In this document: positions 14,208-22,366 of the stretch, one piece after another
How positions within the stretch are numbered: position 1 is the stretch's first letter
Layout of the letters: the number at the start of each line of letters is the position of its first letter
DNA from: a virus
Length of the DNA: 55,988 nucleotides
Virus record (IMG/VR): IMGVR_UViG_3300025141_000115
Location: 1 to 55,988 of that record
Strand: one strand, 5' to 3'
Made by a program: the position numbers and the translations under genes
Notes under the pieces: model-generated
The model's database searches: none
Seen by the model: only the letters and a program-made list of their open reading frames with translations
Told to the model about the DNA's origin: nothing

Positions 14208-15668
14208 CTAATAATATTGACGTAAATATGGAACTTCGGTAATTTCGTCATCTTCTTCGTCTGAGTCAAGTCTTACAAAGCCCCCTTTACGGTATCTAAT
14301 AAGTGCCATCGACATACTGTCGCAGTAATCGTCATTATCCCCATAGGGAAACGCCGCACATTCATCAATTACCTCCTCCGCAAAACGGCGGGTGGGCGCC
14401 CAAACCTTGCCGGACTCGAAAATAGGTGCGACCATATGCATCCTTGTATGTTTATCACGGCCCTTGGACGGGGTATAGTTTACCACGGGAATACCCGTTG
14501 CCCGTAATTCGTCCGTGAGCGGTGTACCTGTAGCCTTCGCCTCGATAATCACCATGTCCGGCTCCCAGTAGTTGTACTCCTGAAGTGCTTTCGCCTTTAA
14601 TTCGGGAAAGTCCCACCGTCCACGCTGGGCATCCATCAGTATGATACTCTCCGGATCCGCCTCGTTTGGCTTAAACACTCCCCAAGTAGTAATGGCGGAG
14701 TAATCCGCCGTCTCCTTCTTCGAGAACGCCGTATCATAACTTTGCATAATATAACTTACCGGAGGAATCTCTTTCTTCTCCCACTTGTTCCACCACTCCT
14801 TCTTTATAATGGCCCCCTCTTCCGCCGTAGGATTCTGCTGCCACTGAGCATTCCACTTGCCCAAAGACAACGAAGCCTTGACCTTGAGCAATTCCTCTTT
14901 CTTCCAGAACTCCGGCCACAATATGTTATCGCTAGGAAGAATGGCAGGAAACTCTACGATGTCCCACTGATCCGCCAGTACATCAGACCCCTGCGCCTTG
15001 AGAAGTTTTCCAGTAAGATCTTTAAGTGACCACCGTGTCATTACAACAACTATAGACCCCCCAGGCTGGAGCCTCTGCCGTGGACCAGAAGTGTACCACT
15101 CGTAAGCACTTTCCATGGCCGTCTCAGAAAGTGCGTCCTGCTCAGAATGCGGATCATCAATAATCAGCAAATCCGCACCACGTCCTGTAATCGCACCGCC
15201 AACACCTGCCGCATAGTATTCCCCACCTTGGCCCGTTTCCCATCGACCCGCTGCCTTGGAATCAATCCGTAAATCCACATCAGGAAAAATATCCTTATAA
15301 ATTTGTAGCTCCATAAGGTTCCGCACCTTTCTTCCGAAACGCACCGCCAATTCCGCCGTATGGGTTGTCTGGATAATTTTAAGCGCAGGATTTTTACCTA
15401 TAAGCCAAGCCGGAAGTAAATAAGACGCAAATTCCGATTTTGTATGACGGGGGGGCATATTGACAATGATCCGTGAACCAGGGTTTTCGGACAACTTTTC
15501 AAACAAAACTGCAATTTTTTTATGATGGGTCCCCTCTATGAATCCTTCGTAAACATACTTTACAAAGACCATAAAATCTTTCTGGGCTTTTTCTCGAATA
15601 ATCAGCTTCTGCTGCTGTTCTTCTAAAGCAAGAACTTCTCGCATTACATCTTCTGAAGCATTAAGCAT
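14208..15668 (-). CDS. terL: Terminase large subunit
   Basis: A 486-residue protein. The ATPase part has Walker A-like PPRHTKSE (residues ~72-79), motif ETGQGGEYYAAGVGGAITG (~144-162) and Walker B LLIIDDPHSE (~167-176). The C-terminal RNase H-like nuclease shows the first acidic residue in SYDTAFSKKETADYSA (~310-325) and the last in DNDDYCDSM (~448-456). It drives DNA into the prohead and cuts concatemers, with TerS at 21586-22167 on the same strand but 6 kb away. The length is normal for this family. Confidence 0.92.
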   Translation of the reverse strand: MLNASEDVMREVLALEEQQQKLIIREKAQKDFMVFVKYVYEGFIEGTHHKKIAVLFEKLSENPGSRIIVNMPPRHTKSEFASYLLPAWLIGKNPALKIIQTTHTAELAVRFGRKVRNLMELQIYKDIFPDVDLRIDSKAAGRWETGQGGEYYAAGVGGAITGRGADLLIIDDPHSEQDALSETAMESAYEWYTSGPRQRLQPGGSIVVVMTRWSLKDLTGKLLKAQGSDVLADQWDIVEFPAILPSDNILWPEFWKKEELLKVKASLSLGKWNAQWQQNPTAEEGAIIKKEWWNKWEKKEIPPVSYIMQSYDTAFSKKETADYSAITTWGVFKPNEADPESIILMDAQRGRWDFPELKAKALQEYNYWEPDMVIIEAKATGTPLTDELRATGIPVVNYTPSKGRDKHTRMHMVAPIFESGKVWAPTRRFAEEVIDECAAFPYGDNDDYCDSMSMALIRYRKGGFVRLDSDEEDDEITEVPYLRQYY

Positions 15669-16403: not shown

Positions 16404-16417
16404 GTGCTTTTCCTTTC

Positions 16418-16447
16418 AAAAAAAAACGGGAGGGAATATTCCCTCCC
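16418..16447 (-). terminator. Intrinsic terminator between early genes (copy 1)
   Basis: A 20-base palindrome GGGAGGGAATATTCCCTCCC at 16428-16447 is followed on the minus strand by nine T. It sits 7 bases after the stop at 16454 and only ~15 bases before the next ATG at 16403, so no promoter fits between them. About 45 bases here are repeated at 16703-16751. Confidence 0.85.
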
Positions 16448-16453
16448 ATGGTT

Positions 16454-16699
16454 TTATTTTATTACTTTGCGGAATGTGATCATGCCATATGAATTAGCAT
16501 AATCCATTGTATAGCCTAATAGTGTAAGGCGTTTCATTTCCTCTAAATAGTTCGGATCGGATGCGTCGACCATGACAAGGCTAGGCATCTCTTGATATTC
16601 TTGGGTAACAACCTCAATCAATGGATCATCACCAGCAAGCACGCCATGCGTATTTTGGTGATCGGTGGTTGCTTTGATATTGTCAGTTAATATTGTCAT
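16454..16699 (-). CDS. Small early protein
   Basis: An 81-residue protein if started at ATG 16699 (MTILTDNIKATTDHQNTHGV), which has AAAGGAAAAG ahead of it; longer in-frame reading would run into the upstream terminator. It has an alpha/beta look (LIEVVTQEYQEMPSLVMVDA, RLTLLGYTMDYANSYG). Not recognised. It lies between two copies of the same terminator. Confidence 0.65.
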   Translation of the reverse strand: MTILTDNIKATTDHQNTHGVLAGDDPLIEVVTQEYQEMPSLVMVDASDPNYLEEMKRLTLLGYTMDYANSYGMITFRKVIK

Positions 16700-16712
16700 T
16701 ACTTTTCCTTTC

Positions 16713-16742
16713 AAAAAAAAGCGGGAGGGAATATTCCCTCCC
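16713..16742 (-). terminator. Intrinsic terminator between early genes (copy 2)
   Basis: The same 20-base palindrome as copy 1 (16723-16742) is followed by eight T on the minus strand. It directly follows the stop at 16749. Both the hairpin and the ribosome-binding region of the next gene are duplicated. Confidence 0.85.
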
Positions 16743-16748
16743 ATGGTT

Positions 16749-17081
16749 TTACTTTTTTGTTTTAGTAAATGTCACGCTATGGCGTGAAGGTTTTGTTTTT
16801 TTGGAAAGTTTAATTAACCTCTCAGCGTGTTCTTTATCGCAAACAACATTAAAAATTGTACTAATGTTTTCAGCCAATAAATCATAATCTAGATTAGTAG
16901 ATTTACCAGCTTGAATTGTTGCTTTGAAAGCATCGCCAAAGATTTCGCCGATACCATGATCATTACGCAAAACGTCTAAATGATCATTGCAAGCTTTCCA
17001 AATTGCTTTGGATTGACCAGCAAAATCTACAAAGTCTTTTTGCTTGGTTATTGTTTTTTTCTCAAAAGTAAATGTTTTCAT
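16749..17081 (-). CDS. Small basic early protein
   Basis: A 110-residue protein from ATG 17081 (MKTFTFEKKTITKQKDFVDF), chosen because AGAGGT lies 8 bases ahead and the predicted promoter is just upstream. It is mainly helical with a basic C-terminus (KLSKKTKPSRHSVTFTKTKK). It has no recognised domain. First gene behind promoter 17137-17165, so probably immediate early. Confidence 0.65.
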   Translation of the reverse strand: MKTFTFEKKTITKQKDFVDFAGQSKAIWKACNDHLDVLRNDHGIGEIFGDAFKATIQAGKSTNLDYDLLAENISTIFNVVCDKEHAERLIKLSKKTKPSRHSVTFTKTKK

Positions 17082-17218: not shown

Positions 17219-17307
17219 TTGCTATTTCGTTCTACCGGCTCCTTTTTCTATTTTAGTGAAATAGCAATTAAGATCTATTCTTATTTTCTATTTTAGTGAA
17301 ATAGCAA
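17219..17307. promoter_or_regulatory. Operator cluster: two direct repeats plus an inverted half site
   Basis: A 24-base block (TTTTCTATTTTAGTGAAA followed by TAGCAA) occurs at 17244-17267 and again at 17284-17307, exactly 40 bases apart. Each has an internal dyad CTATTT/AAATAG. A third, inverted arm TTGCTATTTC is at 17219-17228. It lies in the ~320-base gap upstream of the 17081 promoter. Typical of a repressor/activator binding array; the binding protein is unknown. Confidence 0.65.
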
Positions 17308-17330: not shown

Positions 17331-17405
17331 ACTATATACGTATACGTATATAGTTGGCACGCCAACCGTTGACGATTTGAAGCCCGACCCGACCCGACCC
17401 GACCA
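17331..17405. repeat. Intergenic cassette A: TA-rich palindrome plus (CCCGA)n
   Basis: A perfect 24-base palindrome at 17331-17354 (ACTATATACGTA and its complement) is followed by AAGCCCGACCCGACCCGACC at 17381-17400. The minus strand has four GGG runs two bases apart, a canonical G-quadruplex motif. Cassettes B and C have the same order on the plus strand. The rest of the gap from 17142 to 17461 holds the operator array and a terminator. Confidence 0.75.
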
Positions 17406-17414
17406 GCCGGACAC

Positions 17415-17441
17415 AAAAAAAGGGCGCCCCGAAGGACGCCC
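17415..17441 (-). terminator. Terminator with UUCG loop after 17461
   Basis: On the minus transcript GGGCGUCC, loop UUCG, GGGCGCCC, then seven U (17441 down to 17415). The UUCG tetraloop makes it very stable. The same element is repeated at 17989-18015. Confidence 0.88.
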
Positions 17442-17460
17442 CAATAACCGATAACCCGAT

Positions 17461-17763
17461 TTATTCTACTTGGTTAAGTGTTCCAGTAAAACCACGGTCG
17501 CGTTCCACTTTCAATCCGAATGTACCCGTGAGTTGTTCTAACTCAGATAACCTAAACGTGCCTAGTTCTTTCTCAAGACCATGCACCATTCCATAGAGTA
17601 GGAAGTCACCGTTTTCCTCCTTACGGCCTTCGGTCACATACCATGTCCAGTTAGACCATGGAGTAAACATTTTAAATGCGATTGGAATATCTTCCGAAGG
17701 TGTTTCGGAAAAAGTGCCTAAAGGTGGCAAGCTCTTCTCAATTTCTTTTGTCATTAATTGCAT
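17461..17763 (-). CDS. DUF2958-like protein
   Basis: A 100-residue protein from ATG 17763, which has AAAGG 9 bases ahead; the leader ATGAAAGGTTATA is shared with the gene at 18778. The pattern LPPLGTFSET, FKMFTPWSNWTWYVTEG, FLLYGMVHGLEKELGTFRLS ELEQLTG and VERDRGF fits the DUF2958 family, which is common on plasmids and phages and of unknown function. It has its own promoter and terminator. Confidence 0.8.
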   Translation of the reverse strand: MQLMTKEIEKSLPPLGTFSETPSEDIPIAFKMFTPWSNWTWYVTEGRKEENGDFLLYGMVHGLEKELGTFRLSELEQLTGTFGLKVERDRGFTGTLNQVE

Positions 17764-17799
17764 AATATAACCTTTCATATATGAGTTGTTGACATTGAC

Positions 17800-17828
17800 A
17801 TCGTACCACATAATCCCATTAGAGTAAA
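17800..17828 (-). promoter_or_regulatory. Early promoter upstream of 17763
   Basis: TTTACT (17828-17823) and TACGAT (17805-17800) on the minus strand, 17-base spacer CTAATGGGATTATGTGG. The TCTAATGGGAT part and the downstream GTCAACAA resemble the promoter at 18800-18828. One of a family of related early promoters. Confidence 0.55.
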
Positions 17829-17890
17829 ACATTATTTTTTGCTATCGTGAGTTAGATATATGCTAACGGCTCGCGCCCAACCGCGAAGCT

Positions 17891-17979
17891 CTCGAGGATA
17901 ATATATATATATATAGTCCGTACCCGTCCTATAGTGGGCGGTTCATCGTCCGCTGCCAATAAGCCCGACCCGACCCGAC
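17891..17979. repeat. Intergenic cassette B: TA tract, CCGTCCTATAG, (CCCGA)n
   Basis: CTCGAGGATAATATA starts at 17891, followed by alternating TA to 17915 and by GTACCCGTCCTATAG (17920-17934), then AAGCCCGACCCGACCCGACA (17961-17980). The first two parts recur in cassette C at 19656-19702. The array holds three GGG runs on the minus strand. Cassette B sits between the terminator at 17989 and the promoter at 17800; nothing else is seen in this ~270-base gap. Confidence 0.75.
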
Positions 17980-17988
17980 ATCGAGCAT

Positions 17989-18015
17989 AAAAAAAGGGCG
18001 CCCCGAAGGACGCCC
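17989..18015 (-). terminator. Terminator with UUCG loop after 18038
   Basis: Same stem-loop as at 17415-17441 (GGGCGTCC, TTCG loop, GGGCGCCC, then seven T on the minus strand). It ends the operon that begins at 18778. Confidence 0.88.
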
Positions 18016-18037
18016 GTCAAGTTTGGGAGGTTAAACT

Positions 18038-18229
18038 CTAATCATATAGCATTGCCATTTCATCTTGCCAATGATCTTCGGCAGCGGTATCAACTGCATA
18101 GGCTGGGGTCATGCCATCATCAAAATAATCCCTCCAGTTTGCGTCCGGCATATCATGCAGACCTAACCCAAGTGTCGATTGTACAATGCTATCGCATTTA
18201 TTCATCCATTCCTTGAAATTCTTGTCCAT
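18038..18229 (-). CDS. Small acidic early protein
   Basis: A 63-residue protein from ATG 18229, whose A overlaps the upstream stop (TAATG). It is acidic and aromatic (NWRDYFDDGMTPAYAVDTAA, DHWQDEMAMLYD). Such small acidic early phage proteins often bind host enzymes, but no target can be named. Last gene of its operon. Confidence 0.65.
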   Translation of the reverse strand: MDKNFKEWMNKCDSIVQSTLGLGLHDMPDANWRDYFDDGMTPAYAVDTAAEDHWQDEMAMLYD

Positions 18230-18375
18230 TAGAATAACTCCCATAAAATTGAAAGATAAGCGAGGGCGAATGCTCCCGCCAATACTTTAACGCAAACACC
18301 AAGGTGTCGCATCTTGCGATCCCATCGTTTAGCTTCCTGCCATGCATCGAACTCTCTTGTTAAATCTTGCATCAT
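18229..18375 (-). CDS. Small single-pass membrane protein
   Basis: A 48-residue ORF with a charged N-terminus (MMQDLTREFDAWQEAKRWDR) and one C-terminal membrane helix (VLAGAFALAYLSILW). Its start overlaps the upstream stop (TCATGATG) and its stop overlaps the next start (TAATG), which supports translation. Function unknown. Confidence 0.6.
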   Translation of the reverse strand: MMQDLTREFDAWQEAKRWDRKMRHLGVCVKVLAGAFALAYLSILWELF

Positions 18376-18596
18376 GAAACCCCCTTGTTAGGTAAGTGAA
18401 AAATATTACGAGCATTGGGATAATCCTCAAGCAAATCTTCTTCGCTATTATACAAGTCTTTGCTCATTGGTTTATCACCAGTTCCACCGCATTCGTAGCA
18501 ATCAATATCACGAGAACTAGGATCGTTAGGTTCACGGTCGGAAAGAACACCATCCCCTCCGCAATCAGGACAATCTACTCTAAAAAAATAAGTCAT
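18372..18596 (-). CDS. DnaJ-type zinc finger small protein
   Basis: A 74-residue protein with two CxxCxGxG-type motifs, CPDCGGDG (residues ~9-16) and CYECGGTG (~33-40), which would bind one zinc as in the DnaJ Cys-rich domain. No J domain is present. An acidic C-terminus follows. It may bind unfolded proteins or nucleic acid. ATG 18596 overlaps the stop of the gene before. Confidence 0.7.
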   Translation of the reverse strand: MTYFFRVDCPDCGGDGVLSDREPNDPSSRDIDCYECGGTGDKPMSKDLYNSEEDLLEDYPNARNIFHLPNKGVS

Positions 18597-18778
18597 TTTA
18601 TAACCTCTATTTTTGTATAATAATCCCCTTCACACCATTCAGCCCAGCCCTCACGCCAATCGCTCTTATCGTAAGGGGTAAATTCGTCAGAGTGGTCTCG
18701 GTTTATTTCTTCTAGAATTTCCCTGACCGACCACTTGAAAATCTTACCAGTTTCTATTTCTCTTATTTTGTATTTCAT
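18593..18778 (-). CDS. Small early protein, first gene of minus cluster
   Basis: A 61-residue protein from ATG 18778 (MKYKIREIETGKIFKWSVRE), with AAAGG 9 bases ahead. Two in-frame ATGs (18793 and 18778) are separated by GGTTATAAA, the same leader as at 17763-17781. Acidic, Trp-rich C-terminal half (DWREGWAEWCEGDYYTKIEV). Not recognised. Confidence 0.6.
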   Translation of the reverse strand: MKYKIREIETGKIFKWSVREILEEINRDHSDEFTPYDKSDWREGWAEWCEGDYYTKIEVIK

Positions 18779-18799
18779 TTTATAACCTTTCATTGTTTG

Positions 18800-18839
18800 T
18801 TGACTATTACAGTCTAATGGAATAATATGGGAGGGTCAA
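18800..18839. promoter_or_regulatory. Overlapping divergent early promoters
   Basis: Plus strand: TTGACT (18800-18805), 17 bases, TAATAT (18823-18828). Minus strand: TTGACC (18839-18834), 17 bases, TAGACT (18816-18811). The two promoters overlap almost completely, and TTGTTGAC/GTCAACAA forms a dyad around them (18797-18841), so one regulator or one polymerase could exclude the other direction. This would be a switch between the 18.8-16 kb and 18.9-21 kb clusters. Confidence 0.65.
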
Positions 18840-18861
18840 CAATTAAATGAGAGGATTAATC

Positions 18862-19134
18862 ATGAGTACAACGGATTACGAAAAATTCTTTTTTCTATAT
18901 GACGAAGGGATAAAACTAAATGATTTTCTGCAATGGGGATCTGCAAAGCAGGTCGCCAATGAAAATGCCATAGTTCTTGAAGCTGAACGGATAGCCAAGG
19001 AACAAGGGCGTTCTGAGGAATTGCAAAAGCTTTTCGATAAATGCGACAAAGCGACCGCGGACGAATGTCTAGAATGGCTATTGGATTTCTTTGGTATAAG
19101 AGAGAAATTTTATTCTCTAGATGGGGAGGATTAA
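18862..19134 (+). CDS. Small early protein
   Basis: A 90-residue protein from ATG 18862 (MSTTDYEKFFFLYDEGIKLN), with GAGAGGATTAATC ahead. The same leader GAGGATTAATCATGAGTACAA, allowing for length, opens the next gene. Helical and acidic; AERIAKEQGRSEELQKLFDK in the middle. Function unknown. Confidence 0.65.
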   Translation: MSTTDYEKFFFLYDEGIKLNDFLQWGSAKQVANENAIVLEAERIAKEQGRSEELQKLFDKCDKATADECLEWLLDFFGIREKFYSLDGED

Positions 19135-19136
19135 TC

Positions 19137-19559
19137 ATGAGTACAAGAGCAGTTTATTCTTTTTACGGAAGCAGTCCAGTGGTTCACGTTTACAAGCACT
19201 GGGACAATTATCCATCTATGGGCGTTCGGTTTATTCATAACGCCCTAGACTATGCGTGGAAATTGCCACGCTATGAGAACGATGAATTTTCCGGAGCATT
19301 TGTGGGCGCGAATAAAGATAAGCGCAGATCAGATAGGGATGGCGGTGGCATTCGTTTGATTAGTGGAGATTTGCAGCCATGGGAATTTTCAAGTGATAGT
19401 CAATACTGGTACAAGATCAGGCGGGAGAAATCCGGTCTTGATCTCAACATTGAAATCTTTGAAACAAATTGGTTAAACGGAACTAACAGAAATAAAATAA
19501 CATGGCATGGTAGTTTGACTGATGCGCTCGAGGATTTTCCAATGAGGATTTCCTGCTAG
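19137..19559 (+). CDS. Hypothetical early protein
   Basis: A 140-residue alpha/beta protein from ATG 19137, with GGGGAGGATTAATC as ribosome site; longer in-frame reading would cross the previous gene. It contains YGSSPVVHVYKHWDNYPSMG, GGGIRLISGD and the C-terminal SLTDALEDFPMRISC. It looks like a compact enzyme-sized domain, but I do not recognise it. It is followed by a strong terminator. Confidence 0.7.
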   Translation: MSTRAVYSFYGSSPVVHVYKHWDNYPSMGVRFIHNALDYAWKLPRYENDEFSGAFVGANKDKRRSDRDGGGIRLISGDLQPWEFSSDSQYWYKIRREKSGLDLNIEIFETNWLNGTNRNKITWHGSLTDALEDFPMRISC

Positions 19560-19599
19560 CTTCAGAATATGTAATCAACAAATAAAGAAAGGGAAACTG

Positions 19600-19625
19600 C
19601 GGAGCCGGCTTGGCTCCGTTTTTTT
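19600..19625 (+). terminator. Intrinsic terminator after 19559
   Basis: CGGAGCC (19600-19606), loop GGCTT, GGCTCCG (19612-19618), followed by seven T. Confidence 0.9.
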
Positions 19626-19655
19626 ATGTCCGCTGCCATTGGCTGGCCCCAGTCG

Positions 19656-19783
19656 CTCGAGGATAATAATATATTATTATATAGTACGTACCCGTCCTAT
19701 AGGGGCGCGACCCATTGAAGCCCGACCCGACCCGAACCCGACCCGAACCCGAACCCGACCCGACCAACAACCAAGCCCGACCG
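19656..19783. repeat. Intergenic cassette C: TA palindrome, CCGTCCTATAG, long (CCCGA)n
   Basis: CTCGAGGATAATAATATA starts at 19656; the 18 bases at 19663-19680 are a perfect palindrome. ATAGTACGTACCCGTCCTATAG (19681-19702) follows, then nine or more CCC runs as CCCGA/ACCCGA units at 19721-19783. It shares order and plus-strand orientation with cassette B even though the flanking genes point the other way. Together with a terminator and a promoter it fills the ~300-base gap. Confidence 0.78.
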
Positions 19784-21119: not shown

Positions 21120-21665
21120 CTATACCCCAGGCCCTGGCCAGGTGCCTCGAACCCGTCCATCGAGGCCGACCCCTCCACCGTCCACGGACACCGACCCGAC
21201 CCCCGACCCGACCAACCCCGACCCGACCCGATGGGGCCTGTCTTCCCCGACCCGACCCCGACTGATCCCGATCAATGACCCGACCAACCCCGACCAATCG
21301 TCCCCCGACCAGAGGCAAGGGGCCACGGTTCCCGAACCATTGGCGTGTAAGCCGTGGGTCACCAACTCCCGACCATGATCCCCGCCAAACAAATATAGGT
21401 TAGGGGACAAGAGGGGGTGTACCAAGAAAAAACTTACCCCTCCAGATTTATAATGGGCGTAATTCCAAGCAACTTGATGGGATGAGATATTTATTCGGTT
21501 AGTTTTGGTTACTTTAAGTTCAATCCAGAAAGAACAACCTTCCGCACATATATATACGTCAGGAATGCCACCGCCATAACGGTTTTCAATTCTTGTTACT
21601 TGCCAGTGAAGGGGAATCTTTTCTTTCAATCTGTTCCAAAACAGTGTCTCTGGTTTTTGTGTCAT
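21120..21665 (-). CDS. VRR-NUC / PD-(D/E)XK nuclease with repeat-derived C-terminus
   Basis: A 181-residue frame. ATG 21665 has GAGGTCTTAA ahead and overlaps terS by 80 bases. Residues ~1-110 form a VRR-NUC-like domain: LFWNRLKEKI, ENRYGGGIPDVY (acidic residue), FWIELKV (E-x-K) and SHQVAWNYAHYKSGG. These nucleases act on branched DNA. From ~residue 120 the protein reads through the (GGGTC)n array, giving Gly/Val/Arg-rich sequence (GSGLVGSGVGSVSVDGGGVG) unlike a normal domain. The fold is well supported; the tail may be dispensable. Confidence 0.75.
   Translation of the reverse strand: MTQKPETLFWNRLKEKIPLHWQVTRIENRYGGGIPDVYICAEGCSFWIELKVTKTNRINISSHQVAWNYAHYKSGGVSFFLVHPLLSPNLYLFGGDHGRELVTHGLHANGSGTVAPCLWSGDDWSGLVGSLIGISRGRVGEDRPHRVGSGLVGSGVGSVSVDGGGVGLDGRVRGTWPGPGV
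21166..21310. repeat. Array D: degenerate (CCCGA)n inside nuclease gene
   Basis: About 14 CCGAC/CCCGAC units with AACC and TGATC spacers on the plus strand, so many GGG/GGGG runs on the minus strand. The same units occur in cassettes A-C but without the TA part. It encodes the odd C-terminus of the nuclease. GC is far higher than in the surrounding DNA. Confidence 0.75.
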
Positions 21666-22167
21666 TTAAGACCTCATAGTCTGCATCCGTAAAAATATTA
21701 GGATGATTTTGTCTAAGTTCTTTTAAACGGTTTTCTATTTCATCACGGTTCATATTTTCAATAGCATGAAAGTGACTTGTCTCGCGTCTATCAGTAGTAA
21801 GACCCCCCAGAGCACTTCGCGTTTTTTCAGCGTTAATTGCAGCAGAGAAATGTCCCGCTTCTTCCGCTCCGATAGAAAGTTCAGTAAGTCTTTTTAATTG
21901 TCCTAAAAGAGTAACTCCATATTTCTTTTCTCTATCCTCTCTAAGTTCCGAAATATAATCAGCAACATGGGGAAACAAACTAACGTCCAAAAGTTTATGT
22001 GCTTGGACCTTGGCACAGTCAGAAGCGTAACCTGCAAGTCTGGCACATTCCGCATTACTATGCGTACCATCAACAAAATGTCTGGCAAATTCTTTTTGTC
22101 GGTTGGTCAGTTTCCTGCCGTGAGTTTCTTCAATCTCTTCGGCTCTAGTCTCAATCTTTCTTTTCAT
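21586..22167 (-). CDS. terS: Terminase small subunit
   Basis: A 193-residue protein from ATG 22167, 8 bases after AGGA; ATG 22176 is the alternative. The N-terminal HTH region LTNRQKEFARHFVDGTHSNA ECARLAGYAS and VQAHKLL are the Terminase_2 signature; a central oligomerisation helix (VTLLGQLKRLTELSIGAEEA) and an acidic C-terminus follow. It should bind the packaging start site and hand DNA to TerL. It is encoded 6 kb from terL, on the same strand, with the nuclease overlapping its end. Confidence 0.85.
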   Translation of the reverse strand: MKRKIETRAEEIEETHGRKLTNRQKEFARHFVDGTHSNAECARLAGYASDCAKVQAHKLLDVSLFPHVADYISELREDREKKYGVTLLGQLKRLTELSIGAEEAGHFSAAINAEKTRSALGGLTTDRRETSHFHAIENMNRDEIENRLKELRQNHPNIFTDADYEVLNDTKTRDTVLEQIERKDSPSLASNKN

Positions 22168-22244
22168 GTTCTCCATCCTATATACTAGCGTTTAACAATT
22201 AAAGTTTTTTTTTTACAAAATTCAAAAGGTGGCGGATCAGTAAA

Positions 22245-22366
22245 GTGTAACGGATAGACCCTTTTTGTAACGAAGTGTAACGTGATTGTAACGAGTAAAA
22301 ATTCCTACAATGGACAGTGGTCAATGGTTACAGAGCAACAAAACTTTTTTCGTTACACTTTTACAC
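22245..22366. repeat. TGTAACG repeat cluster (iteron- or pac-like)
   Basis: TGTAACG at 22246-22252, 22266-22272, 22276-22282 and 22287-22293, an inverted CGTTACA at 22351-22357, and half copies (GGTTACA 22325-22331, TTACAC 22361-22366). The ~330-base gap between terS and the gene at 22502 also holds T10 and other AT-rich runs. It is either a replication origin, a TerS binding (pac) site or an operator. No clear promoter pair is seen; TTGCGT (22440) with TAGCTT 17 bases on is a candidate for the plus genes. Confidence 0.65.

Follow-up and report, generated by a model that had tools for sequence, protein, structure and literature searches.

Background

In phages of the SPP1/SF6 kind packaging starts one-way from a pac site: known pac sites are found at terS, the gene for the terminase small subunit (TerS), and hold direct repeats, which in SPP1 form a compact region with three sets over the terS start (PMC4737164). 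In HK97, which has a single site (cos) and an HNH nuclease (gp74) encoded beside the terminase genes, it is the two terminal segments of TerS, N and C, that read sequence while the DNA leaves the ring (PMC11331095). In this work, we describe tandem arrays of a short word, CCCGA, lying between the terminase genes of a 55,988-nt viral stretch, the IMG/VR virus record IMGVR_UViG_3300025141_000115 (hereafter the window; all its coordinates refer to the whole stretch), and follow them through its relatives, where the word changes from clade to clade.

The locus resembles the SPP1/SF6 pac site and its G1P protein in having direct repeats at terS and the same kind of TerS DNA-binding domain (2cmp, Z 8.3), and a one-way packaging start is the role tentatively proposed for the arrays too. 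It differs from SPP1 pac in featuring 3-5 arrays, built of 4-7-bp units, that extend over some 5 kb around the 3' end of a nuclease gene, and in words that differ between sister clades. With HK97 it shares a nuclease gene beside the terminase genes and flexible TerS ends that could read sequence (PMC11331095); in contrast to the one site and HNH nuclease of HK97, tandem arrays and a RecU/Hjc-like nuclease are found here.

The closest described group, judged by the terminase large subunit (TerL), is that of the HTVC023P-type pelagiphages (PMC9599517): the window TerL is 58-65% identical to those of HTVC027P, HTVC023P and 023Pt_psg01, which belong to this group, and of the lake phage DSL-LC04. 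HTVC027P has a CAAGC/GCTTG version of the arrays. In the searched passages of the literature on these phages no such arrays are mentioned, and the text search of PMC9599517 found packaging sites described no more than arrays.

Arrays in the window

The repeat unit, CCCGA (TCGGG on the opposite strand), forms four one-way clusters in the window, all between the terL and terS genes. An initial annotation had described three cassettes, A (17331-17405), B (17891-17979) and C (19656-19783), each with a TA palindrome or alternating tract, ending TATAGT, ahead of the repeats. All three are real, lie where they had been placed and have this layout, some tens of bases separating the TA element from the array; the count was incomplete, a fourth and largest cluster at 21195-21372 having been overlooked. 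The common orientation of the cassettes was also correctly noted, nearby genes facing both ways (minus up to 17832, plus from 18847). The features of the zone are as follows.

14208..15668, minus strand: TerL (terminase large subunit), the other border of the array zone
17331..17354, no strand: perfect TA palindrome of 24 bp preceding array A; accessory and not constantly present
17383..17402, plus strand: array A, four tandem CCCGA, just past the terminator of the minus-strand gene 17461-17832
17901..17914, no strand: alternating AT tract preceding array B, a 14-bp perfect palindrome
17964..17978, plus strand: array B, three tandem CCCGA units
19663..19680, no strand: TA palindrome preceding array C, 18 bp, perfect
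19721..19780, plus strand: array C, nine CCCGA units, past a plus-strand terminator and ahead of the GP88 gene
21195..21372, plus strand: array D (main array), 15 CCCGA units, in the 3' part of the minus-strand nuclease reading frame
21120..21665, minus strand: nuclease with a Holliday-junction-resolvase-like (RecU/Hjc-like) fold, overlapping terS; candidate reader or partner
21586..22176, minus strand: TerS, with the SF6-type helix-turn-helix domain PF03592; the putative, and most likely, reader

The sequence AAGCCCGACCCGACCCGA is found exactly at 17380-17397, 17961-17978 and 19718-19735, always on the plus strand, and had no match in 100 dinucleotide shuffles, even allowing 3 mismatches. On the plus strand, 35 of the 56 CCCGA copies of the window fall inside the terL-terS interval, which makes up 11.6% of its length; on the minus strand the figure is 2 out of 19. 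Over the whole 56 kb, tandem clusters occur only in the four places listed, and only on the plus strand. Arrays A and B directly follow the intrinsic terminators of minus-strand genes, and array C follows a plus-strand one: arrays outside the nuclease gene thus occupy gaps after terminators. No known RNA elements or tRNAs were detected in the window, and a DNA-level search of annotated phages with the array region gave no match.

Strand bias and position among relatives

In contigs related to the window phage and found by the motif, of 36-60% GC, the arrays lie on the strand opposite terL, terS and the nuclease gene, and the cargo between them, namely the GP88 gene and the gene at 19041, is inverted in several relatives. 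As this first sample had been selected by the motif itself, the test was repeated on 86 loci picked by TerS homology alone. In these, one strand has 430 copies of CCCGACCCGA and the other none; for CCCGACC the counts are 968 and 44. Base composition, or a C-rich strand, was discarded as the cause, since other 7-mers made of the same letters are about balanced (median 33 versus 37.5). When TerS sequences were grouped at 90% DNA identity, the bias was present in 115 of 116 clusters and reversed in none, in four clades taken together, the loci being related rather than independent.

The bias is also local. On the array strand, CCCGA reaches its highest density, 23 per kb, at 0.5-1 kb from the TerS start. 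The density remains elevated over about 5 kb toward TerL, weakly so over about 4.5 kb in the opposite direction, and is near zero inside TerS. The peak falls at 0.5-1 kb from the TerS start, next to the gene, in all four clades. In a complete relative, G001, all 15 copies of CCCGACCCGA lie between TerS and TerL, with none elsewhere in the genome. Arrays occupy the same site in clades spanning 31-60% GC, and are kept even within a coding region. A direction-dependent function at the DNA level, independent of the neighboring genes, had been suggested for the cassettes; the 115 clusters out of 116 and the inversion of the cargo genes support it strongly.

Coding words may be strand-biased too, as CTCATC, found 301:20 upstream in clade B; tandem spacing was accordingly added as a requirement. 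With it, the array words come clearly first within the TerS-TerL interval in every clade, and the bias of coding words was rejected as the cause. Two other lines were set aside. Avoidance of the motif outside the zone is seen locally in clade A, on the TerL side (6 observed versus 24.5 expected, the opposite strand giving 48 versus 49) and inside TerS (3 versus 12.3), but is absent in the window as a whole and on the other side, and was not used as evidence. Similarly, many contigs end within arrays, but repeats also break assemblies, and these ends were not taken as physical genome ends. One locus, L227 (NZMJ01000050.1), binned in a Maricaulis metagenome-assembled genome, is as long as the IMG/VR phage contig L167 and has the same TerS match; it is probably phage sequence in the bin, unreliable as host evidence.

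Words differ between TerS clades

Loci seemingly devoid of the motif contained either CCCGAA arrays or, in a sister TerS clade (clade B), CCTGCG repeats, found with a 7-bp period, on one strand and in the same place as the TCGGG arrays. In the clade of 023Pt_psg01 (clade C) the word is GCGAGC, with a 4-bp period, and in that of HTVC027P (clade D) it is CAAGC, with a 7-bp period. Pooled counts on the TerS-sense strand versus the other are 1909:191 for TCGGG, 801:79 for CCTGCG, 212:19 for GCGAGC and 1486:349 for CAAGC. The words of clades B-D were derived from the data; ranking by tandem spacing alone, with strand ignored, recovers the same ones.

In the clades of 023Pt_psg01 and HTVC027P, TerS is reversed relative to TerL, and the arrays still lie between them. 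In the cultured pelagiphage HTVC027P, 25 of 33 GCTTG copies, and all the tandem clusters on that strand, are found between TerS and TerL, the clusters at 16.5-17.7 kb. HTVC023P and DSL-LC04 contain none of the four words. After its nuclease gene, HTVC023P (L151, 14785-15200) features several longer direct repeats around TGAGAATAACAACGAAAA, possibly that lineage's own version of the arrays.

The exchange of one word for another at a fixed place points to a sequence reader that changes with the clade. One-way, local, terminase-linked and re-lettered, the site looks like a DNA address read by a co-changing protein. For TerS-word co-evolution only 1-2 independent switches are available, too few for a statistical proof.

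Terminase and nuclease neighbors

PF03592 and a structural model assign to TerS a DNA-binding domain like that of SF6 G1P; in the model, residues 22-82 match 2cmp and 4zc3 (Z 8.2-8.3, rmsd 1.5, against Z 3.8 for unrelated entries), the match to the small terminase of phage SF6 having Z 8.3. A search of PDB sequences with the TerS profile returned chance-level matches only. The arm preceding the helix-turn-helix comes in two forms, ..HGRKLTNRQ.. and ..GGRP(A/S)GLTNRQ.., which divide 33/0 in the TCGGG clade and 2/21 in the CCTGCG clade.

The model of the nuclease matches 2fco (Z 12.0, 3.0 A over 131 residues), which assigns it the PD-(D/E)XK fold of RecU/Hjc, while Pfam Hjc is found below threshold only (E 0.011-0.02): we describe it as a predicted resolvase-like nuclease. 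Its tail, encoded by the array, is modeled as disordered. Homologs lie beside the arrays in 79/79 loci of clade B, 30/30 of clade C and 76/80 of clade D, and the start of the main array is, in each of the four clades, no more than 200 bp from the end of the nuclease domain and often falls within the nuclease reading frame. In clades A and B the gene has the orientation of TerS, in C and D the reverse one; TerL shares the strand of the nuclease gene wherever TerL was seen.

Palindromes and other repeats

The TA element that the initial annotation had made part of each cassette is a real companion of some arrays, not a fixed component. Palindromes of at least 12 bp precede 22 of the 112 arrays located outside the nuclease gene and follow 2 of 112, the figure for shuffled sequence being 5 of 112: they are thus real but optional, and belong to one side. 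The TATAGT/CCTATAG core is present in few loci. The TA palindromes are accessory to the arrays. The near-identical contigs L005 and L006 differ, within about 100 nt ahead of the array, by the inversion of a 20-nt segment of a long hairpin (CCTGGTATAGTAGTACCAGG versus CCTGGTACTACTATACCAGG), suggestive of template switching next to the array or of an inversion driven by the hairpin.

Further repeats were found in the same part of the window. An exact 24-nt direct repeat, TTTTCTATTTTAGTGAAATAGCAA, lies just upstream of cassette A at 17244-17267 and 17284-17307, 40 nt apart. Among small minus-strand genes, a 71-nt direct repeat, 87% identical, is found at 16407-16477 and 16702-16772 and carries the palindrome GGGAGGGAATATTCCCTCCC. 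Just before the TerS gene, positions 22242-22361 contain repeats of AGTGTAACG/TGTAACG, together with an inverted form; AAAGTGTAA words are the most tandem-repeated on this side of TerS in the window's clade, and in the HTVC027P clade the sequence beyond TerS has strand-biased TTGTAAC words. This region is a candidate second control site or origin.

Discussion

The arrays are one-way and tied to the terminase genes, and of the roles mentioned in the initial annotation that of a packaging mark is the best current reading. We tentatively see in them a directional, clade-specific, pac-like zone for the initiation of packaging, located between nuclease/TerS and TerL, and give this role, which we infer, nearly an even chance. 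The main array, at the end of the nuclease gene, would form a single zone with the satellite arrays in the gaps toward TerL. TerS would read the clade word, perhaps while the DNA threads through its ring, the flexible segments around its helix-turn-helix testing each unit; many closely spaced copies would supply avidity, and one-way reading would set the direction of packaging, toward TerL. At the arrays, the concatemer would be debranched or cut with the help of the neighboring resolvase-like nuclease. TerS is favored as the reader by the direct repeats of known pac sites at terS (PMC4737164), by the reading of sequence through the flexible TerS ends in HK97 (PMC11331095) and by the TerS arm that differs between word clades. 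Unit spacing varies from 4 to 7 bp, which would suit a reader taking one unit at a time over a rigid wrapped complex.

Several observations weigh against this reading. The TerS binding domain of SF6 shows almost no sequence preference in vitro (PMC4737164), and the zone, at about 5 kb, is much longer than any known pac site. The association of TerS arm and word rests on 1-2 independent changes on the tree; the linkage of the nuclease to the arrays is at least as tight as that of TerS, and one change is enough to fit the nuclease tree to the word, against two for the TerS tree. The ends of G001 overlap by 91 bp, so that it assembles as a circle, as headful genomes do, but terminally redundant genomes fit as well, and those with direct terminal repeats would look alike; the window sequence has no end overlap.

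Among the alternatives, the arrays might serve a replication origin as iterons, or binding sites, where a phage-specific initiator reads the clade word and the TA palindromes melt. Tandem direct repeats in one orientation, AT-rich palindromes ahead of some arrays and confinement to one zone do resemble iteron origins. Most arrays, however, lack palindromes, and there are 3-5 clusters over about 5 kb, whose constant neighbors are the nuclease, TerS and TerL, while no initiator gene was recognized beside them among the neighbors scanned, and the primase, helicase and polymerase genes are distant, by 12-17 kb in the window and by about 10 kb in HTVC027P; we regard an origin as rather unlikely. 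A Chi-like signal for recombination or end protection would account for other traits; its reader, acting on one strand when the concatemer opens near the packaging site, would be a helicase-nuclease of the host or the phage, or else the resolvase-like nuclease next to the arrays. Chi sites are short words in one orientation, differing between lineages; the array words, of 5-6 bases, are likewise one-way and lineage-specific, and the main array is always carried by the resolvase-like nuclease gene. Chi sites are, on the other hand, scattered along genomes, while tandem copies are here restricted to the zone between TerS and TerL; tandem units every 4-7 bp are atypical of Chi, no partner helicase-nuclease was identified, and a Chi-like role is in our judgment slightly less likely still than an origin.

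Microsatellites prone to slippage, or a small mobile repeat of no use to the phage, would agree with units of 4-7 bp and with the copy number, which differs between L005 and L006. Slippage or transposition would, in contrast, yield copies on both strands and in many places, instead of 430 to 0 and the same site in four clades. The mobile repeat considered in the initial annotation finds no support, because the arrays hold one site and one orientation, with tandem copies confined to the interval in the complete genomes of G001 and HTVC027P, and we deem either explanation very improbable. A G-quadruplex, or a melting element, on the GGGTC strand is hardly credible as the general explanation. A canonical quadruplex motif is indeed present on that strand in 73 of 79 TCGGG-clade loci, but at the same site in only 7 of 79 CCTGCG loci and in none of the 80 CAAGC loci, and cassette B, with only three CCC runs, falls short of a canonical quadruplex. 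Successive G runs are linked by TC in 461 of 946 cases and by TTC in 88, indicating that the sequence is conserved and not the G runs alone. As the word is swapped at the same site, for CCTGCG or CAAGC in sister clades, the quadruplex previously proposed was rejected as a shared function; it could be a local property of the window's clade.

The packaging reading may be carried further, to a superclade of marine phages using a swappable one-way "address word" in tandem arrays, which co-evolves with TerS (or the nuclease), so that sister lineages recognize their own DNA only, each word being read unit by unit and with no fixed helical spacing. This extension is possible, though doubtful; if true, it would be a mode of packaging-site recognition not described before.

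Purified TerS proteins of the pac type mostly bind DNA weakly and non-specifically, and all current models of how the site is found have weaknesses (PMC9611059). Arrays beside the genes that start packaging are present in the window phage and in well over a hundred marine relatives, which offer more than 100 natural TerS/array pairs with visibly different words at a fixed place, including cultured HTVC027P on SAR11 HTCC1062. If the arrays are the packaging site, recognition and direction of packaging would be directly testable, and the words would serve as a sequence tag to group uncultured marine phages; should the arrays instead prove to be an origin or a recombination signal, they would represent an overlooked control element in a very abundant group of phages.

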